NCBI GenBank assembly: GCA_902772625.1
Contig: CACYBP010000231.1
Location: forward strand, 1-16,120
DNA from: Oscillospiraceae bacterium
Lineage (GTDB): Bacteria; Bacillota; Clostridia; Oscillospirales; QAMX01
Length of the DNA: 16,120 nt
Direction: 5' to 3'
A program made the translations under genes and the position numbers. How positions within the stretch are numbered: the first letter of the stretch is position 1; the number at the start of each line of letters is the position of its first letter. Below are positions 1,015 to 16,120 of this stretch, one piece after another. A model generated the notes under the pieces. The model was not told the DNA's origin, ran no database searches, and saw nothing but the letters and a program-made list of their open reading frames with translations.

Positions 1015-1050
1015 ACTCGTTTGAAAGAAGTATCTTCAGGAGGGAAACGA

Positions 1051-2256
1051 ATGACTAAAGTAGATATATTCTCGGGCTTTCTGGGAGCGGGCAAGACGAC
1101 CCTGATCAAAAAGCTCATCAAAGAAGCCTACAAGGGCGAAATGATCGTGGTGATCGAAAACGAGTTCGGCAAGATCGGCATCGACGGCGGCTTTCTGAAG
1201 GAGGCCGGGATCCAGATCACCGAGATGAACTCCGGGTGCATCTGCTGCAGCCTGGTGGGCGACTTCGGCGAGGCGCTGAAGAAGGTCGAGGAGGAGTATC
1301 ATCCCGACCGCATCGTGATCGAGCCCTCGGGCGTCGGCAAGCTCTCCGACGTCATCCGCGCCGTGCAGGACGCCGGGGTGGAAAACCTCGTGCTGAACGC
1401 CTTCACCACCGTGATCGACGCGTCCAAGTGCAAGATGTATATGAAAAACTTCGCCGAATTCTATCAGAATCAGATCGAATTCGCCTCCTCCATCGTCTTC
1501 TCCCGCACGGCGGGACTGCGCGCCGACAAGCTTGCCGACGCGGTGGAGCTGGTGCGCGCCCTGAATCAGAGCGCGTCCCTGATCACCACTCCCTGGGACG
1601 AGTTGGACGGCAAGGCCATCCTGGAGACCATGGAGAAGAAGAACACCCTGGAGGCCGAGCTGGAGCATCTTCTCGAGGAACAGAAGAAAAAGGACGCCCA
1701 TCATCACCATCACCATCATCACGAGGACGGCGAGGAGTGCGACGATCCGGAGTGCGAATGCCACCATCATCACGACGACGAGGACGAGGACGAGCACGAG
1801 CATCACCACCACCATCACGAGGACGGCGAGGAGTGCGACGATCCGGAGTGCGAATGCCATCATCATCACGACGACGATGACGAGGATGAGCACGAGCATC
1901 ACCATCACCACCATCACGACGACGATGACGACGAGCACGAGCATCATCACCATCATCACGACGATGACCACGACGCCGACGAGGTGTTCACCAGCTGGGG
2001 AATCGAGACCGCGGCCCGTTTCACCGAGGGCTTCGTGGAGGATTGCCTGGACGAGCTGATGACCGGCCGCTTCGGCATGATCTTACGCGCCAAGGGGATC
2101 CTGGCGGGTCAGAACGGCGAATGGATCCACTTCGACTATGTGCCGGGCGAAAAAGAGGTGCGTCTGGGCTCGGCCGACGTCACCGGCAAGCTCTGTGTCA
2201 TCGGCACCGATCTCGACCGGAAGAGCCTGAAGGCGCTTTTCACTCCGGCTGAGTAA
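1051..2256 (+). CDS. COG0523 (CobW/ZNG1-type) metallochaperone GTPase with a large His/Asp/Cys metal-binding arm
   Basis: A 401-residue cytosolic P-loop GTPase of the G3E/COG0523 family, which hands metal ions (often zinc) to client proteins. The P-loop is GFLGAGKTT at residues 9-17, the family CxCC metal site is GCICC at 62-66, and the switch II motif is EPSG at 91-94. The guanine-specificity motif, normally NKxD, reads SRTA at 151-154. Residues 217-310 form an acidic metal-binding insert with 39 histidines and 6 cysteines. A CobW C-terminal domain follows from about 311 (FTSWGIE...). I chose ATG 1051 because CAGGAGGG lies six bases upstream; the in-frame TTG at 1021 falls on the predicted transcription start and would be leaderless. 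It is followed 29 bases later by a second COG0523 gene. The metal is inferred from the family; zinc is the likeliest but nickel or cobalt is possible. Confidence 0.93.
   Translation: MTKVDIFSGFLGAGKTTLIKKLIKEAYKGEMIVVIENEFGKIGIDGGFLKEAGIQITEMNSGCICCSLVGDFGEALKKVEEEYHPDRIVIEPSGVGKLSDVIRAVQDAGVENLVLNAFTTVIDASKCKMYMKNFAEFYQNQIEFASSIVFSRTAGLRADKLADAVELVRALNQSASLITTPWDELDGKAILETMEKKNTLEAELEHLLEEQKKKDAHHHHHHHHEDGEECDDPECECHHHHDDEDEDEHEHHHHHHEDGEECDDPECECHHHHDDDDEDEHEHHHHHHHDDDDDEHEHHHHHHDDDHDADEVFTSWGIETAARFTEGFVEDCLDELMTGRFGMILRAKGILAGQNGEWIHFDYVPGEKEVRLGSADVTGKLCVIGTDLDRKSLKALFTPAE
1699..1980 (+). repeat. Coding repeat: duplicated 96-base His/Asp/Cys module
   Basis: Low-complexity coding DNA made of CAT/CAC and GAC/GAG/GAT codons. 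A 39-base block (1723-1761) encoding EDGEECDDPECEC recurs without change at 1819-1857, exactly 96 bases (32 codons) downstream. The His/Asp codons after each copy differ at silent positions, and a shorter third HEH...HHH unit follows near 1930-1960. It looks like in-frame tandem duplication of a metal-binding module, since the reading frame is kept throughout. Confidence 0.85.
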
Positions 2257-2285
2257 AAAGGCCATCGCTCTGGAAAGGAACCGAT

Positions 2286-3233
2286 ATGGAAGTACCCGTA
2301 TATCTGTTTACCGGCTTTCTGGAGGCGGGAAAGACCCGCTTCCTGCAGGAAGCGCTTTCTGACAGGAATTTCTTCGACAAGGGCGGCGAGCGCACGCTGG
2401 TGCTCCTGTGCGAAGAGGGCGAGGAGGAGCTTGATCCCTCCGGATTCGCCTCCCCCGACGTGTTCGTGGAGGTGCTGGAAAACGAACGCTGGCTGAACCC
2501 CGACAAGCTCGAGGCGCTCCGGCGCAAGCACAACGCCAACCGCGTCATGATCGAATACAACGGCATGTGGCTGGGTAATCAGCTCTTCGAGGCGCTCCCC
2601 GAGGACTGGTATATCTTCCAGGAGATGATGCAGGCCGACGCCTCCACCATCGAGGTCTACAACGCCAACATGAGAAACCTGGTGGTGGATAAGCTTTCCA
2701 CCTGCGACCTGGTGGTGTTCAACCGGTGCGAGGACGACACCGACACCATGGCGCTGCACAAGCTGGTGCGCGCCGTCAGCCGCCGCGCCAACATCATCTA
2801 CGAAAAGACCGACGGCTCGGCCACCTACGATACCATCGAGGATCCCCTGCCCTTCGACGTGAACGCGCCGGTGATCACGGTGGAGGACCGGGATTACGCG
2901 CTGTTCTACCGGGATCTCGGCGAGAACATGGAGACCTATCAGGGAAAGACCGTGCATTTCATGGGTCAGGTCAGCCTGGGGCCGCAGCTGCCCAAGGGCG
3001 GCTTCATCATCGGAAGGCCCATCATGACCTGCTGCGTCCAGGACACCACCTTCAGCGGGCTCTTCTCCGAAAACGACGCGAACCTGGTCGCCAACGGCGA
3101 CTGGGTGCGCCTCTCGGCGAAGATCGACCTGAAAAAGTGCCGCGTCTACGGCGGGCGCAAGGGCCCGGTCCTGAAGACGATCGCTCTGGAACCGGCCGAA
3201 GCGCCGGAGGATCCGGTGGCAACCTTCTATTGA
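2286..3233 (+). CDS. COG0523-like GTPase fused to a DUF1980 (YcgQ-type) C-terminal domain
   Basis: A 315-residue protein whose first ~200 residues form a second, divergent COG0523 GTPase. It has the P-loop GFLEAGKT (10-17), EYNG (90-93) in place of the switch II EPSG, and NRCED (146-150) near the usual NKxD. It lacks the CxCC metal site and has no His-rich arm. Residues about 203-315 resemble DUF1980, the C-terminal domain of B. subtilis YcgQ-type proteins that accompany COG0701 permeases: YQGKTVHFMGQV (218-229), GRPIMTCCVQDTTFSG (243-258) and DWVRLSAKI (272-280). The paired cysteines at 249-250 could bind metal or be redox-active. The ribosome site AAAGGAA is five bases before the ATG. It is the second gene of the operon, before the terminator at 3245-3290. 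A heteromeric partnership with the upstream GTPase is likely but inferred. Confidence 0.85.
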   Translation: MEVPVYLFTGFLEAGKTRFLQEALSDRNFFDKGGERTLVLLCEEGEEELDPSGFASPDVFVEVLENERWLNPDKLEALRRKHNANRVMIEYNGMWLGNQLFEALPEDWYIFQEMMQADASTIEVYNANMRNLVVDKLSTCDLVVFNRCEDDTDTMALHKLVRAVSRRANIIYEKTDGSATYDTIEDPLPFDVNAPVITVEDRDYALFYRDLGENMETYQGKTVHFMGQVSLGPQLPKGGFIIGRPIMTCCVQDTTFSGLFSENDANLVANGDWVRLSAKIDLKKCRVYGGRKGPVLKTIALEPAEAPEDPVATFY

Positions 3234-7971: not shown

Positions 7972-8001
7972 GACTTCTTCCTCCTTTGCTTTTTTGAACG
8001 G

Positions 8002-9009
8002 TCAGAGGTCCGACCGCCTTTTCGGATACCGCCTTCTCGCGCGGTCGCCGAGAAGCGATAAAAGCTTGATGTGCCGGGTGGTGAAGGTCCCGTCCTTTTC
8101 AAAAAGGACGATCTCCCGGCCGCCGCGGATATCGTCTTCGCAGGTCATGTCGTACCCCACGGCGCTGTCGTAGGCCAGGGTGATGCCGAAGAGCTCGCCC
8201 GAAAAATCGTTGAGATGCTCGTGACCGAAGAAGATCCCCTTCACGTCGCCCCTCTGCTGGCAGGCCATGAAAAGGCCGTTATTCATCTCGGAGCAGCAGA
8301 TGGTCTCCCTCTGTTCGCCGATCATATGGCAGGCCAGGGGGTTTTTCTGGATCAGAAGCATTTCCATGATGGGGACGTGCATGTACATGATGGCCGGGAT
8401 CTTATATCCCAGCTCCTTTTCCATGGCCTTCGACGTCTCGTAATACCAGACCACCTGATCGAACATCGCCGAGGCCTGCACGCTGCCGCTCCCGAAGGAG
8501 TTGCGGAGGATATACCGGTGTTCCGGGTGGCCGAAGGCCTCCTGATAATCGGGGTATTCCCGGAAGGAATCCATGGCCCAGATATTCCAGGCGATCCGCG
8601 CCCCGTCGGAGGAGCGGACCGGCAGAACGTAATTCCCCACCCCACTCACCTCCTCCGGCCCGGCGGAGGAAAGACAGAGGGGAAATTCCTCGTAGACTTT
8701 TTCCTGCTCCGAAAGGGTCATGGGCTGCTCCCGGTCGTGGTTGCCGTAGACGTGAGCCCAGGGGATATCGCGCTCGGTCAGATGGGAAAGGGTGTGGCGA
8801 AGGTAGTTATAGAGCCTTTCGGGGGAGTCGGCGCCCAGCTGGTCGCCGCCCAAAAGCACCAGATCCGGATCGGTCCCGTCCACCAGGGCGTCGATCCCCT
8901 CCTTGAGCTGGGGGCCCGAGCGGTCGTGCCCGTGGAAATCCGAGATCATCAGGATGCGGAAGGTGCCGTCCTTCCGGAAGGAAAGCTCTTTTTTCAAGGC
9001 GGGGATCAT
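8002..9009 (-). CDS. Calcineurin-like metallophosphoesterase
   Basis: A 335-residue protein with all five metal-ligand blocks of the binuclear metallophosphoesterase fold: DFH (D24, H26), GGDQ (D56), GNHD (N90-D92), a later MHVP (H211) and GHEH (H263, H265). These residues hold two metal ions, so the enzyme should be active as a phosphatase or phosphodiesterase. Its overall size and GNHDREQ block resemble the Dcr2/purple-acid-like branch. There is no signal peptide. AAAGGA lies about 13 bases before ATG 9009, a long spacing, but no better in-frame start occurs before DFH. It is the first gene of a three-gene operon with a GH95-like glycosidase, which may mean that it acts on a phosphorylated sugar or a cyclic nucleotide, though this is inference. 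Confidence 0.88.
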   Translation of the reverse strand: MIPALKKELSFRKDGTFRILMISDFHGHDRSGPQLKEGIDALVDGTDPDLVLLGGDQLGADSPERLYNYLRHTLSHLTERDIPWAHVYGNHDREQPMTLSEQEKVYEEFPLCLSSAGPEEVSGVGNYVLPVRSSDGARIAWNIWAMDSFREYPDYQEAFGHPEHRYILRNSFGSGSVQASAMFDQVVWYYETSKAMEKELGYKIPAIMYMHVPIMEMLLIQKNPLACHMIGEQRETICCSEMNNGLFMACQQRGDVKGIFFGHEHLNDFSGELFGITLAYDSAVGYDMTCEDDIRGGREIVLFEKDGTFTTRHIKLLSLLGDRARRRYPKRRSDL

Positions 9010-9094
9010 GGCCGACTTACCGTCCTTTCCCGGAAACGTTTGGCATGGGGAAAGCGGCTTTCTCCGCCGGAGGCGGGCCGCCTTCTTTTTTTCT

Positions 9095-9124
9095 ATTATG
9101 CCCGGAAAGAGCGGGGTTTGTCAA
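9095..9124 (-). promoter_or_regulatory. Sigma-A-type promoter of the metallophosphoesterase / GH95 operon
   Basis: On the minus strand a perfect -35 TTGACA (9124-9119) and a -10 CATAAT (9100-9095) are separated by 18 bases. Transcription should start near 9087, about 78 bases before the ATG at 9009. The leader contains a compact hairpin, CCGCC-GGA-GGCGG at 9064-9076. The rest of 9010-9227 holds a GGGGATTTCACCCC inverted repeat upstream of the -35 box and nothing else that I can identify. Confidence 0.65.
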
Positions 9125-9679: not shown

Positions 9680-10279
9680 TCAGACGCGGCCCTCCTGTTC
9701 CTCCAGAAAGACGTTGAAGCCGCGGAAAAAGAGATCGCTGACCGTGCGGGAGATCTCCTCCACCGGGGTCCGCCGGTCGGAGTTGAACCAGCTCTGGTAC
9801 ACCCCGATCAGCCCTGAAAGCGAATAATCCAGGATCACGTTCACCCGGTCCCCGTCCAGCGCCAGCTGCGGGGCGAGCGCTTCCCGCGCCTTTTCCTTCA
9901 GAAGGGCCACCAGCTTTGCCGAAAGCCCCGCGTTCTCGGTCATGGACAGAAGGTGACCGTAAAAATCCATGTCGGTGTTGATGATGGCGGTGATCTTCTG
10001 GAAGATCGCGTAGGGGTTCTCCATCTCCCGCCGGAGATCCAGATCGCCGAAGACCGCTTCGGTCATGGCGACCACCTCGTTTTCGATCTCGTCCATCACC
10101 TGATGGATGCCGCTGTAATAATTATAGAAGGTCTTGCGGTTGATCCCGGCCTGCGCGGCCACGTCGCGGATGGTGATCTCGTTGAGATCCCGTTCGGCCA
10201 GAAGCGCGGCCAGAGCGTTGCGGATGGCGCGCTTGGTGCGCCTGACCCGGGGATCCGCCGGCTTCGCTTTTTCCTGCAT
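9680..10279 (-). CDS. TetR/AcrR-family transcriptional regulator
   Basis: A 199-residue protein with a standard N-terminal TetR helix-turn-helix. Residues about 15-60 contain TKRAIRNALAALL, then EITIRDVAAQAGINRKTFYNYY, where ITIRDVA-x(3)-GIN...FYNYY is the family signature. The C-terminal half is a helical ligand and dimer domain ending YQSWFNSDRRTPVEEI, which resembles the type seen in clostridial regulators that end in a W-x-N-x(5)-P-x-E-E-I helix. The ATG at 10279 has a perfect AAGGAGG seven bases upstream. It is divergent from the lipid operon at 10474. The two promoters overlap, so it probably represses itself and that operon, with a lipid or acyl ligand a plausible but unproven inducer. 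Confidence 0.93.
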   Translation of the reverse strand: MQEKAKPADPRVRRTKRAIRNALAALLAERDLNEITIRDVAAQAGINRKTFYNYYSGIHQVMDEIENEVVAMTEAVFGDLDLRREMENPYAIFQKITAIINTDMDFYGHLLSMTENAGLSAKLVALLKEKAREALAPQLALDGDRVNVILDYSLSGLIGVYQSWFNSDRRTPVEEISRTVSDLFFRGFNVFLEEQEGRV

Positions 10280-10334
10280 GAGAAGGCCTCCTTATACCAC
10301 GAATTTGACGAAAACTGTTGCTTATGCCCCGCGA

Positions 10335-10427
10335 TGAGGCAAAAGCGTGGCGGACGTGCCGCCCGGAAAGAAAGCTGTCGCTTGCACTTTTTCCCGAAAC
10401 CATTATAATACACATGTGAGGCAAAAG
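10335..10427 (+). repeat. Direct repeat TGAGGCAAAAG x2 and palindromes in the divergent promoter region
   Basis: TGAGGCAAAAG occurs at 10335-10345 and again at 10417-10427, 82 bases apart, on both sides of the overlapping promoters. Between them lie GGCGG-ACGTG-CCGCC (10349-10363) and the palindrome CACATGTG (10411-10418). These are candidate TetR operators. TetR sites are normally palindromic, so the two inverted repeats are better candidates than the direct repeat. Confidence 0.5.
10382..10409 (+). promoter_or_regulatory. Promoter of the GT28-fakA-fakB-plsX operon
   Basis: TTGCAC (10382-10387) and a perfect TATAAT (10404-10409) are 16 bases apart. Transcription should begin near 10416, about 58 bases before the ATG at 10474. 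Its -10 box shares four bases with the -10 box of the divergent tetR promoter, so the two can hardly be occupied at once. Confidence 0.7.
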
Positions 10428-10431
10428 TCAA
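10402..10431 (-). promoter_or_regulatory. Promoter of the tetR gene, overlapping the divergent promoter
   Basis: On the minus strand TTGACT (10431-10426) and TATAAT (10407-10402) are 18 bases apart. The start would be near 10395, leaving a leader of about 115 bases. An eight-base palindrome CACATGTG (10411-10418) lies in its spacer and just downstream of the opposing -10 box, a natural place for an operator. Confidence 0.62.
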
Positions 10432-10473
10432 GGATCCGCCCGATACGGGGCGGGAAAGGGGGGAAAAAGCGGG

Positions 10474-11541
10474 ATGAAGCTTCTGATTTTGGGATACGAG
10501 TCCGGGACCGGACAGACCATCGCGGCCAGAGCTCTCCGGGAAGAGGCCGAAAAGGCGGGACACGAAGTATTCACCGCCGATCTCTCTTCCTTCCAGGGGG
10601 AGACGGGAAAGAAGAAAAACGCCCTCTCCCGGCGCGTGGAGAAAATGACCGAATCCTCGTCTCTGGCGCTGCCCTTTCTGTTTTCCGGGAGCCGGTACGC
10701 CGGGGCCTTCGGCAGGGCGATCGGGGATGGCGGATACGACGCGATCCTCGCGATCCACCCTCACGCGATGGAGGCTCTGTCGGCCCTTCTCCGGCGGGGA
10801 GAGACCCTTCCCGCGTGCTTCGGCGTGTTTTGCGATTACGCGCTTCCCCCGCTCTTCCGCGCGTCCGAGCTCGGGGGATATTTTCTGCCCCATTGGAGCA
10901 TGACCGAGGATCTGGCCGAAAAGGGGATCCTCCGGGAAAAGCTTGTCCCCTGCGGGGCGCCGCTGCCCGAGCGGCTTTCCGCGGTGCCGGGAAAGGACGA
11001 GGCGCGCAATTTTCTCTGGCTTCCCCGGGACGAGACCGTCTTTCTGCTCTTTGCCGACGGCATGAACACGGGAAACGCCGTGCGGATCCTGGACGAGCTT
11101 CTGGAACGCTTCCCCGAAAAGGCGCGGATCACGGTGATGGCCGGACGGGAAAGCGAGGAGCGCGACGAGCTTTCCACCCGTTATCAGGGAGAGAGCCGGG
11201 TGATGATCAACGCCGTGCCCGAACGGTTCGAGCTGTATCTCGCGGCGGGGGACGTCCTGATCGCAAGGCCCGACGGGGTGCTTTCTTCCGGCGCGGCTCT
11301 GGCGGGGATCCCGACGGTGCTCCTTCCCGCGCTCCCCGGAACGGCGGAGGCGAAAAACGCCGATTTCTTTGCCGGGCGGGAGATGGCGCTGAAGGCCCAG
11401 GGCGCGCGCGACGCGGTCCGGAAGGCCGAAAGACTGGTGCGGGACGGAGCGCTGGGAGACCGGATGAAGGCCATGCAGCGCCGCGGCTCGGTCCGGGCGG
11501 GGGCGGGGGAGATCCTCCGGGAGATCGCCCAGGGGATCTGA
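10474..11541 (+). CDS. GT28 / UgtP-MGDG-synthase-like glycosyltransferase (GT-B fold)
   Basis: A 355-residue protein with the two-domain layout of the diacylglycerol glycosyltransferases (UgtP, MGDG synthase) and MurG. The N-terminal MGDG-synthase-like domain starts MKLLILGYESGTGQTIAARAL, where family members usually have GxGH; here His is Gln (Q14). GVFCDYALPPLF (117-128) then YFLPHWSM...GI...G (136-161) matches the family pattern in which a D-Y/W block precedes the acceptor loop. The donor site ARPDGVLSSGAALAGIPTVL (264-283) and LPGTAEAKNADFF (287-299) correspond to the KPGGxTxSEAL and PGQExxNA motifs, with several normal residues changed. A run of G before the ATG (10457-10463) serves as the ribosome site. 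It likely transfers a sugar to diacylglycerol, or is a diverged relative. It is first gene of the lipid operon. Confidence 0.82.
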   Translation: MKLLILGYESGTGQTIAARALREEAEKAGHEVFTADLSSFQGETGKKKNALSRRVEKMTESSSLALPFLFSGSRYAGAFGRAIGDGGYDAILAIHPHAMEALSALLRRGETLPACFGVFCDYALPPLFRASELGGYFLPHWSMTEDLAEKGILREKLVPCGAPLPERLSAVPGKDEARNFLWLPRDETVFLLFADGMNTGNAVRILDELLERFPEKARITVMAGRESEERDELSTRYQGESRVMINAVPERFELYLAAGDVLIARPDGVLSSGAALAGIPTVLLPALPGTAEAKNADFFAGREMALKAQGARDAVRKAERLVRDGALGDRMKAMQRRGSVRAGAGEILREIAQGI

Positions 11542-11624
11542 ACCGGAAGGAAGACCGAAACGACTTTTTATACTATATCAATTTTGAATACGGACCGGAA
11601 GACGGTCGGGAGTGAAGAAGACGT
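11542..11624 (+). other. AT-rich leader before fakA, no confident promoter
   Basis: This 83-base gap holds the AT-rich stretch 11563-11590 (TTTTTATACTATATCAATTTTGAATA) and a small hairpin GACCG-GAAGA-CGGTC (11593-11607). TATACT (11569-11574) could be a -10 box, but no -35 hexamer sits at the right distance. The ribosome site before ATG 11625 is weak (GGGAG about 12 bases upstream). It may hold a weak internal promoter or a processing site; I cannot decide. Confidence 0.35.
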
Positions 11625-13262
11625 ATGACCAAGATCGACGGAGCGCTCTATTCCCGCATGGTGCGGGCGGGAAGCGAAAACCTCGCGGAATACCGGAAGG
11701 TCGTCAACGACCTGAACGTATTTCCCATCCCGGACGGGGATACCGGCGACAACATGTTCATGACCTGCGAGGCCGGGGCGGGCGCCGCGGGAAGCGCGTC
11801 GCTGGAGAAGGCGGCGGAGGCCGTGGCCCAGGGAATGCTGCTCGGCGCCCGGGGAAACTCCGGAGTGATCCTTTCCCGGATCTTCGCGGGCATCGCCCGG
11901 GGCTTCAGGGGCCTTGAAAAGGCCGGAGCCGGCGAGATCGCCGCGGCCATGAAGACGGGACTGGAGGAAGCTTACCGCGCCGTGGCCGTGCCGGTGGAGG
12001 GAACCATCCTCACGGTGTACCGGGAGGGGGTTGAAAGGGCCGCCCGGAACCTGAGTGCGGAGAGCACCCCCGAAAGCTTTTTCCGGGATCTGGTGAAGGA
12101 ATGCGAGGAGGCGCTGCTGCGCACCCCCGACCAGCTGGCCGTCCTGAAGGAGGCCGGCGTGGTGGACAGCGGCGGCGCGGGTTTTTATTACATCGCCGAG
12201 GGCATGAAAAAGGCCCTCACCGGCGACTGGATCGAGGGAGAGAGAGCCGCCGCGGCTCCCGCGGCGAAAAAGGGCCCCGATCTTTCGCTCTTTACCGAGG
12301 AAAGCGAGCTGACCTTCGGCTACTGCACCGAATTTCTGCTCAGACTTCAGAAAAAGAAGGGCGATCCGGAGGATTTCCCCCTGGAAAAGGAACGGGCATG
12401 GCTGGAAAAAGCCGGAGATTCCGTGGTGGTCTTTCGGGACGGAAGCGTCCTGAAGGTTCACGTTCACACGAAGACCCCCGGGGAGATCCTGAATCATTTC
12501 CAGCTTTACGGCGAATACCTGACCCTGAAGATCGAAAATATGACCCTGCAGCACAGCGAAAGCCGCGTGGAGAACCGGTTTGAGGTCAAACGGGCGAAAA
12601 AGCCCTACGGCATCGTGGCCGTGGCCTCGGGGGAGGGACTCAAAAAGACCTTCCTGGAATTGGGCTGTGACGAGGTGGTGGAGGGCGGACAGAGCATGAA
12701 CCCCTCGGCGGAGGCCTTCGTGGAGGCCTTCCGGAGGACCAACGCCGAGACCGTTCTGGTCTTCCCCAACAACGGCAACGTCATCCTCACCGCGCGCCAG
12801 GCCGCCGGACTCTTCGAAGAAAGCGACGTGCGCGTGGTGGAAAGCCGCACCGTGGGCGAAGGGTACGCCGCGATCTCCATGCTGGACACCTCCTCGGGGG
12901 ACACCGACGCGATCCTGGAGGAGATGAAGGAGGTCATCGGCGGCGTCGTCACCGGCGTGGTGTCCCGGGCGTCCCGCGCCGCGGAGATGAACGGGGTCGG
13001 GGTGAAGAAGGGCGATTTCATCGGCTTTTCGGACGACGTGATCTACGTGGACGACGCGAACCGGGAAAAGGCCGCGCTGCGTCTTGCCGAGGCTCTGCAC
13101 GCCGAAAACTACGACATCCTGCTTCTGCTTTGCGGGCTCGACGCGCCCGAGGAGGAGACCCGGCGCGTGACCGACGGACTCAGGGCGGCCTATAAACGCA
13201 CCGAGGTCATCACCGTCGACGGCGGCCAGCCCTTATACGATTACATCCTGATCCTGGAATGA
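11625..13262 (+). CDS. fakA: Fatty acid kinase catalytic subunit FakA (DAK2 domain, YloV family)
   Basis: A 545-residue protein of the FakA/YloV family, which phosphorylates fatty acids bound to FakB to give acyl-phosphate for phospholipid synthesis. The N-terminal DAK2 kinase domain has DLNVFPIPDGDTGDNM at 29-44, where the aspartates bind Mg-ATP, and GARGNSGVILSRI at 74-86. VVDSGGAGFYY (179-189) ends this domain. The middle domain shows YCTEF (233-237) and KVHVHTKTPG (277-286), the Cys/His pair associated with the bound zinc and the catalytic core. The C-terminal FakB-docking domain has GGQSMNPS (354-361), VFPNNGNVI (379-387) and VESRTVGEGYAA (405-416). Length is typical. Start ATG 11625 puts MTKIDGALYSRMV at the usual N-terminus. 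The next gene, 43 bases downstream, encodes its FakB-type partner. Confidence 0.95.
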   Translation: MTKIDGALYSRMVRAGSENLAEYRKVVNDLNVFPIPDGDTGDNMFMTCEAGAGAAGSASLEKAAEAVAQGMLLGARGNSGVILSRIFAGIARGFRGLEKAGAGEIAAAMKTGLEEAYRAVAVPVEGTILTVYREGVERAARNLSAESTPESFFRDLVKECEEALLRTPDQLAVLKEAGVVDSGGAGFYYIAEGMKKALTGDWIEGERAAAAPAAKKGPDLSLFTEESELTFGYCTEFLLRLQKKKGDPEDFPLEKERAWLEKAGDSVVVFRDGSVLKVHVHTKTPGEILNHFQLYGEYLTLKIENMTLQHSESRVENRFEVKRAKKPYGIVAVASGEGLKKTFLELGCDEVVEGGQSMNPSAEAFVEAFRRTNAETVLVFPNNGNVILTARQAAGLFEESDVRVVESRTVGEGYAAISMLDTSSGDTDAILEEMKEVIGGVVTGVVSRASRAAEMNGVGVKKGDFIGFSDDVIYVDDANREKAALRLAEALHAENYDILLLLCGLDAPEEETRRVTDGLRAAYKRTEVITVDGGQPLYDYILILE

Positions 13263-13266
13263 CAAA

Positions 13267-13289
13267 GATTCAATCAGATTCAATCAGAT
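13267..13289 (+). repeat. Short tandem repeat between fakA and fakB
   Basis: GATTCAATCA occurs twice in tandem (13267-13276 and 13277-13286), with a third copy starting GAT. It lies in the 43-base gap before the AAAGGAGAG ribosome site of fakB. It may be replication slippage or may keep the leader unstructured. I attach no function to it. Confidence 0.7.
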
Positions 13290-13305
13290 AAAGGAGAGAA
13301 AGATC

Positions 13306-14175
13306 ATGCTCGTGCTTTTCACCGACACCGATACCGACATCACCCCGTCCGAGGCGAAGGAATACGGCTACCGCCTCATCAGCATGCCCTACAGCATCGA
13401 CGGCGTGACCACCTACCCCTACGTGGATTTCGAGGAGTTCGACGCCCACGCCTTCTATGAAAAGCTGCGCGGCGGGGTGCTCCCCACCACCAGCGCCATC
13501 AGCGTCGAGCAGTACAAAAAGTACTTCGAGCCGGTCTTTGCCGAGGGAGACGATATCCTCTACGTGCATTTCTCCCGCGCCATGACCGCGACCTTCGACG
13601 CCATGGACGAGGCGGTGGCCGCTCTGAAGGAAAAGTATCCCGAAAGAGCCTTCTATGAGATCGACACCAAGGGCATCACCATCGGAAGCCTCAACATCGT
13701 CAAGGAGGCGGGCGATCTCTATAAGGCCGGCAAGACCGCGGAGGAGATCCTGGCCTGGGCGAAAGAGGAGGTGGACCGGTTCGCGGTCTATTTCTTTGTG
13801 GACGATCTGAAATTCTTCCGCCACAGCGGCCGCGTGTCGGGCATCGCCGGCACCATGGGGACCCTTCTGGGGATCCGGCCCATCATCCACATGAACGCCG
13901 AAGGAAAGATGGTCAGCGTGGGCAAGGAAAAGGGCCGCGCCAAGGCCATGGCAAGGCTCGTCGGCATCGTGGACGAGCTCGGCGACCACGTCGCCGATCA
14001 CCGGGTGATCGTGGGTCATTCGGATATGGAGGACGTGGCCGATCAGGTGATCGAAGAGCTGAAAAAGCGCTACGGGGATTCGCTCCGGGTGGAAAAGACC
14101 CTGGTCAATCCCACCGCGGGCAGCCATTGCGGCCCCAACGGCGTGGGTATCAGCTTCCACGCGATCCACCGGTAA
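13306..14175 (+). CDS. fakB: DegV-family fatty acid-binding protein FakB
   Basis: A 289-residue DegV protein. FakB proteins carry one fatty acid in a closed pocket and present its carboxylate to FakA for phosphorylation. Family hallmarks are visible: PTTSAIS at 60-66 (the TS that coordinates the carboxylate), HFSRAMTATF at 88-97, GRVSGIAGTMGTLLGIRPII at 175-194, and GSHCGPNGVG at 272-281 with the conserved His274. The start differs from most DegV proteins, which begin with a DSS/DSA motif: here it reads FTDTDTDI. AAAGGAGAG (13290-13298) lies seven bases before the ATG. Its immediate position after fakA supports the FakB assignment over a stand-alone DegV. Chain-length or unsaturation preference cannot be told by eye. 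Confidence 0.93.
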   Translation: MLVLFTDTDTDITPSEAKEYGYRLISMPYSIDGVTTYPYVDFEEFDAHAFYEKLRGGVLPTTSAISVEQYKKYFEPVFAEGDDILYVHFSRAMTATFDAMDEAVAALKEKYPERAFYEIDTKGITIGSLNIVKEAGDLYKAGKTAEEILAWAKEEVDRFAVYFFVDDLKFFRHSGRVSGIAGTMGTLLGIRPIIHMNAEGKMVSVGKEKGRAKAMARLVGIVDELGDHVADHRVIVGHSDMEDVADQVIEELKKRYGDSLRVEKTLVNPTAGSHCGPNGVGISFHAIHR

Positions 14176-14214
14176 GAGCACCGGACGGACTGAAAAAACG
14201 AGGGAGGGATCCGG

Positions 14215-15351
14215 ATGGTGACCGTCAGAGAGGTCAAGACCCCTAAAGAGCAAAAGGAATTCATCGAGTTTCCCCTGAAGCTTTATAAAGACAATCCGTA
14301 CTTCGTGCCGCCCCTCTACGGCGACGAAAAGAAGCTGTTCCGCCCCGATTATCTCTATTACGACACCTGCGAGGCGGTCTATTATAACGCCTACCGGGAC
14401 GGAAAGATCGTGGGAAGGATCTCCGGGATCCTGCAGAAGGCGTCCAACGAGAAGACCGGCGAAAAGCGCGTGCGCTTCACCCGCTTCGATTCGATCGACG
14501 ATCAGGAGGTGGCCTCGGCCCTCTTCGGCGCGGTGGAGACCTGGGCCCGGGAAAAGGGCATGGACACCGTGGTGGGCCCCCTGGGCTTTTCCGATCTGGA
14601 ACGCGAGGGGCTTCTGGTGGAGGGCTTCGACCAGCTTTCCACTTTTGAGGAGCAGTATAACGCCGATTATTATCCCCGCCTTGTGGAGGCCTGCGGCTAC
14701 CGGAAGGAGGTCGACTGGCTGGAAAGCAAGCTTTACGCCCCGGAGGACGACGACGGCAGCCTGAAAAAGATGACCGATTTCATCCTGAACCGCTACCGCC
14801 TGCACTTCGGCAAGGCGAAAAGCGTCCGGGATTTCATCCGCCGGTACGGCGACGAGTTCTTCGCCCTTCTGGACGAGGCGTACAAAGATCTTTACGGCAC
14901 CGTCCCCTTCACCGAGGGGATGAAAAAGCTGATCATCTCCAACTTCCTCCTGATCGTGGATCTGGAGCACGTGGCGGTGATCCTGGATGAAAACGAAAAG
15001 CTGGTGTGTCTCGGCATCTGCTTCCCCTCCATCGCCCGGGCGGTGCAGCCCTCGGGCGGCCGGCTGACGCCCCTTGCCCTGATCCGCCTCCTGAAGGCCA
15101 TCAAAAAGCCGAAGATCCTGGATCTGGGTCTGATCGCCGTGGCGCCGGAATACATGAACCGCGGCGTGTCCACCGCCATCTCCGCCGAGCTTCTGCGCAT
15201 GCTCCGGGAGGACGGGATCGAATACGCCGAGACCAACCTCAATCTGGAAACGAACCACGCCATCCAGAACCAGTGGAAGCGCTTCCGCCAGGTAAGGCAC
15301 AAGCGCCGCCGCTCCTACGTGAAAAGCCTCGGGGAGGGAACAGAGGAATGA
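14215..15351 (+). CDS. YghO / bacterial-ceramide-synthase-like GNAT-fold acyltransferase
   Basis: A 378-residue soluble protein of the YghO-type family, whose relatives include the bacterial ceramide synthase bCerS. The N-terminal block is FIEFPLKLYKDNPYFVPPL (16-34), with the P-x-x-LY-x-x-x-P-x-x-VPPL pattern. GPLGFSDLEREGLLVEGF (121-138) carries the family's GP-x-x-FS...G-L-L-V-E-G-F motif. The C-terminal GNAT half has DLGLIAVAPEYMNRGVSTAI (303-322), which corresponds to the acyl-CoA or acyl-ACP loop, and ETNLNLETNHAIQNQW (339-354) followed by HKRRRSYVK (362-370). GGGAGGG lies about seven bases before ATG 14215. It sits between fakB and plsX, and its stop overlaps the plsX start by four bases (ATGA). 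An acyltransferase that uses acyl-ACP or acyl-phosphate, forming an N-acyl or O-acyl lipid, is the best guess. Plain N-acetyltransferase is an alternative. Confidence 0.85.
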   Translation: MVTVREVKTPKEQKEFIEFPLKLYKDNPYFVPPLYGDEKKLFRPDYLYYDTCEAVYYNAYRDGKIVGRISGILQKASNEKTGEKRVRFTRFDSIDDQEVASALFGAVETWAREKGMDTVVGPLGFSDLEREGLLVEGFDQLSTFEEQYNADYYPRLVEACGYRKEVDWLESKLYAPEDDDGSLKKMTDFILNRYRLHFGKAKSVRDFIRRYGDEFFALLDEAYKDLYGTVPFTEGMKKLIISNFLLIVDLEHVAVILDENEKLVCLGICFPSIARAVQPSGGRLTPLALIRLLKAIKKPKILDLGLIAVAPEYMNRGVSTAISAELLRMLREDGIEYAETNLNLETNHAIQNQWKRFRQVRHKRRRSYVKSLGEGTEE

Positions 15352-16120
15352 AGATCGTCATGGACACCGCGGGAGGCGACAAGAGCCCCCGGGCCAACGT
15401 GGAAGGCGCGCTCCTCGCCATGAAAAAGCACGCGGACCTCAAAACCGTCTTCACCGGGGATGAGGAAACGGTCGCGCCGCTCCTCCGGGAGCTCGGCGCG
15501 CCCATGGACCGGATCGAGGTGATCCACGCCCCGGGCGTCATCACCGGCGAGGACAAGCCCACCGACGCCATCCGCCTGAAAAAGGACAGCTCCATGATCC
15601 GGGCGATCCGGCTCCTCCGGGAGGATCCGGAGGTTTCCGCCCTGATTTCCACCGGCGCCACCGGCGCCCTGGTGGCGGCGGCCACCCTCAGGATCGGAAG
15701 GCTCCGGGGGATCAGACGGCCGGCCTTCTGCCCCCTGCTTCCCACCATGCAGGGCGGGATCGTGGGGGTCTGCGACAGCGGGGCCAATATGGATATCCTC
15801 CCGTCTCAGCTCCGGGAATTCGCCATTCTCGGGTCCGAGTATCTTTCGGCGGTCTGCGGCGTGAAGGATCCCCGGGTGGCGCTCCTGAACGTGGGGGTCG
15901 AAAGCGAAAAGGGCGACGACCTGCACAAGGAGGGCTGCCGCCTTCTTGCCGGGACGCCTGGGATCCGGTTCGTCGGCAACATGGAAAGCCGGGATCTCCT
16001 TTCGGGGAAATACGATCTGGTGGTTTCCGACGGATTCTCCGGGAACGTCCTGATCAAGGCCACCGAGGGCACCGCGCTGGAGCTTCTGAAAAGGCTGAAA
16101 AAGGACATCTATTCCAAAAA
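15348..16120 (+). CDS. plsX: Phosphate acyltransferase PlsX (3' end cut by window edge)
   Basis: The frame runs open from ATG 15348 to the right edge: 257 complete codons, about three quarters of a usual PlsX (roughly 330-345 residues). PlsX makes acyl-phosphate from acyl-ACP, or the reverse, and feeds PlsY and glycerolipid synthesis. Reading the DNA gives MKIVMDTAGGDKSP at the start (the family normally has DAMGGD), AIRLKKDSSM, STGATGALVAAAT, VCDSGANMDILPSQL, LNVGVESEKGDDLHKEG and DLVVSDGFSGNVLIKATEG, all matching PlsX. The start overlaps the upstream acyltransferase stop by four bases (15348-15351), so translation is probably coupled; GGGAGGG and GAGGA supply the ribosome site. The DTAGGD variant may mark a branch of the family. 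The C-terminus cannot be judged. Confidence 0.95.
   Translation, partial: MKIVMDTAGGDKSPRANVEGALLAMKKHADLKTVFTGDEETVAPLLRELGAPMDRIEVIHAPGVITGEDKPTDAIRLKKDSSMIRAIRLLREDPEVSALISTGATGALVAAATLRIGRLRGIRRPAFCPLLPTMQGGIVGVCDSGANMDILPSQLREFAILGSEYLSAVCGVKDPRVALLNVGVESEKGDDLHKEGCRLLAGTPGIRFVGNMESRDLLSGKYDLVVSDGFSGNVLIKATEGTALELLKRLKKDIYSK

Follow-up and report, generated by a model that had tools for sequence, protein, structure and literature searches.

The window analysed here, a stretch of 16,120 nucleotides, is one whole contig (CACYBP010000231.1) of a 408-contig, 86% complete genome of an Oscillospiraceae bacterium (GCA_902772625.1). It ends in an operon in which the genes of the fatty acid kinase (Fak) subunits FakA and FakB are followed by the gene of a YghO/bCerS-like acyltransferase (AT) and by that of PlsX. 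The list of open reading frames (ORFs) agrees with the five same-strand genes of the initial annotation: all five are on the plus strand, spaced by 83, 43 and 39 bases and then by a 4-base overlap. The features are:

10474..11541, plus strand: GT28/MGDG-synthase-like glycosyltransferase, 355 amino acids (MGDG_synth 23.5 bits); a variable member
11625..13262, plus strand: FakA, YloV-type fatty-acid kinase catalytic subunit, 545 amino acids (YloV, TIGR03599, 524 bits)
13306..14175, plus strand: FakB, DegV-family fatty-acid-binding subunit, 289 amino acids (DegV 195 bits)
14215..15351, plus strand: AT, YghO/bCerS-like tandem-GNAT acyltransferase, 378 amino acids (GNAT domain, YghO homology)
15348..16120, plus strand: PlsX, acyl-ACP:phosphate acyltransferase, 5' part, 257 residues (TIGR00182 261 bits)
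9680..10279, minus strand: TetR-family regulator, divergent from the operon (Pfam TetR_N 31.7 bits, TetR_C_8 41.3 bits)

The operon is cut off by the end of the contig, which the window spans completely: PlsX is incomplete (its ORF runs from 15348 to 16118 on the plus strand), and the acyl carrier protein (ACP) gene found in relatives would lie beyond that end. FakA contains the FakA-like C, M and Dak2 Pfam domains, has the motif NVFPIPDGDTGDN at residue 31, scores above the YloV cut-off of 396 bits and stays below the FakA_VfrB equivalog cut-off (413 of 975). FakB exceeds the DegV cut-off of 27 bits, is below the FakB1 equivalog cut-off (88 bits of 350) and contains TSAIS and HCGPNGVG, which we take to be motifs of its family. 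The 257 residues of PlsX score above the cut-off of their equivalog model (243 bits). The assignment of the glycosyltransferase is weak: its MGDG_synth score is just below the cut-off of 25 bits, and it reaches 58.8 bits against the diglucosyl-diacylglycerol synthase model (cut-off 500); its relative at locus L121 exceeds the MGDG_synth cut-off (34.5 bits).

The gene order was compared across genomes. A scan of named genomes gave at least 554 stretches with an AT relative, of which the best 80 loci were kept and their partners found by profile searches; these loci are the closest relatives, so the fractions apply to this clade rather than to YghO-like proteins in general. Denominators are assessable loci, and ‘directly’ upstream or downstream means within 400 bases. 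FakB is directly upstream of AT in 65 of 74 loci, FakA is upstream in 49 of 60, PlsX is directly downstream in 61 of 75 and ACP is present in 48 of 67. In the locus from the same genus as the window (L031), ACP follows PlsX at 10910-11131. All 60 ACP matches examined have DS followed by L, I or V (DSL in 51). The order FakA–FakB–AT–PlsX thus recurs beyond chance across most of the best 80 loci, and the YghO-like gene keeps its place beside fakB and plsX, where the initial annotation had allowed for a neighbourhood that is not conserved in relatives. The glycosyltransferase, which it had counted among the members, is not a constant one: GT28 is upstream in just 6 of 45 assessable loci (and also in L031), which rules it out of the operon core.

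Among 295 genomes of the same order, AT is detected in 34: 18 at 48% identity or more, 13 at 37-43% and three weakly. The 18 genomes with a close AT hold 20 copies, and in all 16 loci fetched besides the window FakB is in the same cluster, directly upstream of AT in 11 and in the order AT–FakA–FakB in five. FakB is directly upstream of the distant AT copies of this sample in 1 of 12 assessable cases. Several variants exist: AT–FakA–FakB without PlsX (L042-L044, L058, L059), an AMP-binding enzyme upstream (L092, L095, L134), and a PAP2-family protein after ACP (L078, L092, L095, L100, L126, L134, L139). In L071, L079, L081, L084 and L096, AT and ACP occur without Fak or PlsX in the stretches examined. 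The genomes of these five AT–ACP loci all have a strong match to serine palmitoyltransferase (SPT), that of L096 being a fragment at a contig edge. The ORF upstream of AT–ACP in L071, L079, L084 and L096, presumably isoleucyl-tRNA synthetase, is an odd and repeated place for the pair. In L066 the operon lies on a 3.4-kb contig binned as Syntrophobacterales; its AT is 75% identical to that of the window, which suggests a misbinned contig.

The operon copies of FakA and PlsX are mostly additional to others in the same genome. The window genome has a second full FakA on contig C102 (598 bits), preceded by a 119-amino-acid ORF which we take to be Asp23-like, and a second PlsX on contig C193, followed by ORFs which are presumably RNase III and SMC. 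Genome G014, of the same genus and without AT, has one FakA and one PlsX. In a FakA tree of 31 operon, 12 housekeeping and 6 other sequences (31 operon loci entered; classes assigned after viewing the neighbours), the 12 housekeeping FakA fall into a single clade (100/100) that contains none of the operon copies. L196-L198, which have FakA–FakB–PlsX without AT, group among the operon copies; L190 and L191 are placed next to the housekeeping clade with weak support, and L192 branches basally on the operon side. The separate housekeeping FakA and PlsX, with surroundings of their own and a FakA clade of their own, indicate that the operon is a mostly dedicated set. This is not universal: the operon PlsX is the sole PlsX in G092 and G142, and in a Treponema metagenome-assembled genome (MAG; L128) the operon FakA and PlsX are the only copies. 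Taken together, a conserved, mostly dedicated operon in which the Fak system is combined with a bCerS-like acyltransferase is real.

Two further observations concern these genes. The Treponema MAG, from horse faeces, carries the whole FakA–FakB–AT–PlsX–ACP set (8001-9116 and flanks), and a search for PlsY found none in it; the set may have arrived by horizontal transfer, or the bin may be chimeric. Three genomes that belong to one genus (G086:C58, G071:C39, G099:C38) have a further FakA that adjoins a second PlsY-like gene, which scores under the PlsY cut-off.

Pfam and NCBIfam give AT no specific name: GNAT domains are over or near the cut-off (Acetyltransf_1 with 28.7 bits, cut-off 20.7, at residues 296-340 of 378) and no NCBIfam family matches. 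A PDB sequence search with AT alone gives no match, and one with an AT profile gives weak GNATs. The nearest solved folds (VIA-align) are acetyltransferases with tandem GNAT domains, and N-myristoyltransferases share the fold. Against E. coli YghO the window AT is 26% identical over the whole length (E 5e-38, single comparison); 18 columns are invariant over the 37 aligned AT and YghO sequences, nine of them of the YghO types. Where YghO has CAMMPHG, AT has FEEQYN. In E. coli F1267, yghO is clustered with spt, ACP, an epimerase and an acyl-AMP ligase. The part of PMC9386255 available names yghO together with Caulobacter CC_1154 (bCerS) as the presumptive acyl-CoA N-acyltransferase of dihydroceramide synthesis; AT is likened to CC_1154 through YghO and this source. 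Among named genomes, the closest AT proteins belong to MAGs designated Clostridia bacterium. In the AT tree (FastTree), most of the Fak- or ACP-linked AT share one group of 94 members (83 Fak, 10 ACP, one neither) with a support of 0.45, so a single origin is not claimed. We propose that AT is an acyl-ACP-dependent N-acyltransferase.

The genes for a sphingoid base were sought in the same genomes. With E. coli SPT as query, a strong homologue (38-44%) is found in 11 of 25 chosen genomes, including the window genome; the match in G009 is weak. The best NCBIfam model for the window-genome protein is SPT (CFB) with 525 bits, followed by a second SPT model (405), the BioF/Kbl family (382), bioF (379), the glycine C-acetyltransferase models (375 and 292) and ALAS (249), and its best PDB match is an SPT (435 bits vs 271 for the best non-SPT). 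Both sets of scores favour SPT, so that KBL is an unlikely identity. The protein contains GTFSK at residue 237, presumably the pyridoxal phosphate-lysine motif. For the reductase encoded next to it, KdsR is the best of 226 matching families (241 bits; next best 219), and the two genes are adjacent in 27 of 31 loci examined. In L180:5985-8790, SPT-like, KdsR-like and DegV/FakB genes stand in tandem with profile matches 1 and 21 bases apart, the last being Pfam DegV. In L179:6054-11689, an AMP-binding enzyme, SPT-like, KdsR-like, ACP and a second AMP-binding enzyme form a row, which is a compact candidate sphingolipid cluster. Both arrangements link the halves of the proposed pathway; their genomes (G253 and G114) have no Fak-linked AT.

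Strong SPT matches are found in 49 of 80 named operon genomes (30/50 and 19/30) vs 47 of 383 controls (p 4e-19); the controls are class genomes without Fak-linked AT, drawn class-wide and unmatched for lineage or habitat, and all p-values given here treat genomes as independent though they are related. In the order sample, which the named set overlaps, SPT is present in 10 of 18 genomes with Fak-linked AT vs 31 of 277 others (p 1.8e-5), and by genus in 5 of 9 vs 23 of 139 (p 0.013). When all AT are counted in the class sample, the figures are 30 of 52 vs 19 of 339, and by genus 15 of 23 vs 14 of 200 (p 3e-10).

It is established that Fak makes acyl-phosphate and that PlsX links acyl-phosphate and acyl-ACP. 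We judge it somewhat more probable than not that the operon forms that half of a sphingolipid-type pathway which supplies the acyl donor and carries out the acylation, ending in the bCerS-like N-acylation of a sphingoid base. FakB would bind a free fatty acid, FakA would phosphorylate it, and PlsX would shift the acyl group from acyl-phosphate to the ACP encoded just downstream. From there AT would pass it on to the amino group of sphinganine or 3-ketosphinganine, yielding a lipid of the dihydroceramide type. The SPT-like and KdsR-like enzymes, encoded elsewhere in the genome, would make the base; in genomes without SPT it might, as a guess, be taken up from the gut or rumen. The GT28 protein in the window and the PAP2-family protein of some relatives could add a head group. 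We infer every reaction, the donor, the acceptor, base uptake and the head-group step from gene content; the donor and acceptor of AT are drawn from its sequence and from co-occurrence. The AT–ACP loci without Fak or PlsX favour ACP as AT's partner or donor, and the AT–FakA–FakB loci without PlsX would fit a direct use of acyl-phosphate by AT. A sphingoid base is taken as acceptor because of the YghO homology and the SPT co-occurrence. The initial annotation had fatty acid channelled into a specific lipid by the YghO/bCerS-like acyltransferase. This agrees with the conservation of the neighbourhood, with the presence of an ACP, with the separate housekeeping copies of FakA and PlsX and with the SPT co-occurrence, the inconstant GT28 being its exception. 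It is modified here, in that acyl-ACP on the operon's own ACP is the likely direct donor and a sphingoid base the acceptor with the best support. For the window genome, a sphingolipid-type pathway is the best-supported explanation.

Several results weigh against this pathway. The SPT-like protein is below the curated NCBIfam SPT cut-off (525 of 640), in contrast to E. coli SPT, which passes its own (600 of 500), and the reductase is below that for KdsR (241 of 400); they are therefore named SPT-like and KdsR-like only. A strong SPT match is absent in 31 of the 80 named operon genomes, including the cultured Eubacterium ruminantium ATCC 17233 (L100) and Lachnospiraceae AC2029 (L134). In the order sample SPT is missing in 8 of 18 operon genomes, and since these include the 99%-complete G061 and G038, its absence is not only a matter of missing sequence. 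Conversely, 31 of the 41 SPT genomes of the order have no Fak-linked AT. In the class sample SPT is present in only 2 of 8 genomes with Fak-linked AT (p 0.26); the class signal stems from distant AT (28/44), which in the order sample is unlinked to SPT (1/13) and mostly without Fak neighbours. AT and SPT share a locus in none of the 143 loci that were profile-searched.

The SPT-less operon genomes (31/80 named, and all but two of eight in the class sample) sit more easily with AT as a lipid N- or O-acyltransferase that is likewise fed by FakAB–PlsX–ACP and acts on another acceptor (an amino acid, ethanolamine or a lyso-lipid), the SPT link being a coincidence of lineage or habitat. At L056 a distant AT is preceded by a PAP2-family protein and lies near an ORF which we take to be PlsC-like, and N-acyl amines from gut Clostridia are described in the part of PMC10191378 available. 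However, E. coli YghO is in an SPT cluster and the co-occurrence holds by genus (order, p 0.013; class, all AT, p 3e-10); we regard this explanation as somewhat unlikely. That the operon is a second route of exogenous fatty acids into ordinary phospholipid, with AT replacing PlsY or PlsC, is a distinctly unlikely explanation. According to the available part of PMC12594616, acyl-phosphate feeds PlsY in phospholipid synthesis of Firmicutes, and the operon PlsX is the sole one in G092 and G142. Yet PlsY exceeds its cut-off in 24 of the 25 genomes that were searched for it, among them 17 of the 18 with the operon, where only the Treponema MAG lacks it (the search covered PlsY, not PlsC). This makes a replacement of PlsY unlikely, and the window genome has its separate housekeeping FakA and PlsX. 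It is very improbable that AT acetylates small molecules or proteins and has come to lie in the operon by chance: its nearest solved folds are tandem-GNAT acetyltransferases, but N-myristoyltransferases share that fold and the position beside FakB, PlsX or ACP is conserved in the Fak-linked clade.

Looking at the surroundings of the operon, an opposite-strand TetR gene is upstream in 13 fetched relatives (L031, L067, L083, L105, L112, L118, L121, L124, L129, L135, L137, L138 and L142). Between TetR and the glycosyltransferase (10280-10473), one short palindrome (10278-10295) overlaps the TetR start and one promoter-like site is on the minus strand; no operator is claimed and no claim is drawn from the site. 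Farther upstream (1021-3233) the window has two tandem CobW-type genes, the first with long His/Asp-rich stretches and the second with a DUF1980 C-terminal domain.

Compared with known systems, the operon resembles bCerS (CC_1154) and YghO in the full-length YghO homology, the invariant residues, the company of ACP and acyl-activating enzymes and the presence of SPT in many of the same genomes; it differs in the low identity to YghO, in activation by FakA/FakB/PlsX rather than by an acyl-AMP ligase, and in that the base-making genes are elsewhere in the genome. It shares the FakA, FakB and PlsX families with the Fak system of exogenous fatty-acid use, but forms an additional set that brings along an ACP and a YghO-like acyltransferase, and its FakA does not fall within the housekeeping clade. 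The rhodobacterial spt-acpR-epi-aasR-aca set, as given in the available part of PMC9386255, also has a special ACP and an acyl-activating enzyme together with SPT and an N-acyltransferase, and AMP-binding enzymes occur in some relatives of the window (L092, L095, L134, L179); in the window genome the genes are split between two sites, Fak/PlsX take the part of the activating enzyme and a KdsR-like short-chain dehydrogenase/reductase is next to SPT. The Bacteroidota SPT (NF047600) and KdsR (NF049977) are the best NCBIfam models for the window-genome pair, which differs in scoring under the curated cut-offs and in its host group, Clostridia by the nearest AT proteins.

In a literature search mostly outside subscription journals and preprints, no paper joining FakA/FakB with a GNAT acyltransferase was found, and none joining a fatty acid kinase with a sphingolipid or ceramide synthase was among the matches listed; nor was this gene set found, among the matches listed, in papers on sphingolipids, Clostridia and SPT. 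PMC11334938, as far as available, reports Spt-like proteins in MAGs of 38 phyla, and the words Firmicutes, Bacillota and Clostridia were not found in its main text as available. The available part of PMC11087976 already suggests sphingolipid genes in some Gram-positive bacteria, so that such genes as such are not new. The reviews PMC10191378 and PMC10626005 name no clostridial sphingolipid producer in the parts available. The latter, in the same part, describes an uptake of dietary sphinganine by gut bacteria; according to it, Bifidobacterium has no sphingolipid synthesis and forms dihydroceramide from imported sphingolipids.

It is possible, and falls somewhat short of probable, that many uncultured gut and rumen Clostridia have a split sphingolipid pathway, in which SPT–KdsR would make the base and the Fak operon would add a second chain from the host or diet, while carriers without SPT would assemble ceramide entirely from salvaged base and salvaged fatty acid. 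Sphingolipids in the gut influence the immunity and metabolism of the host and are attributed mainly to Bacteroidota. If the proposal is true, another large bacterial group of gut and rumen would become a candidate source of these lipids. Their second acyl chain would then mirror the fatty acids of host or diet, and the fatty-acid kinase would serve to make something besides phospholipid.

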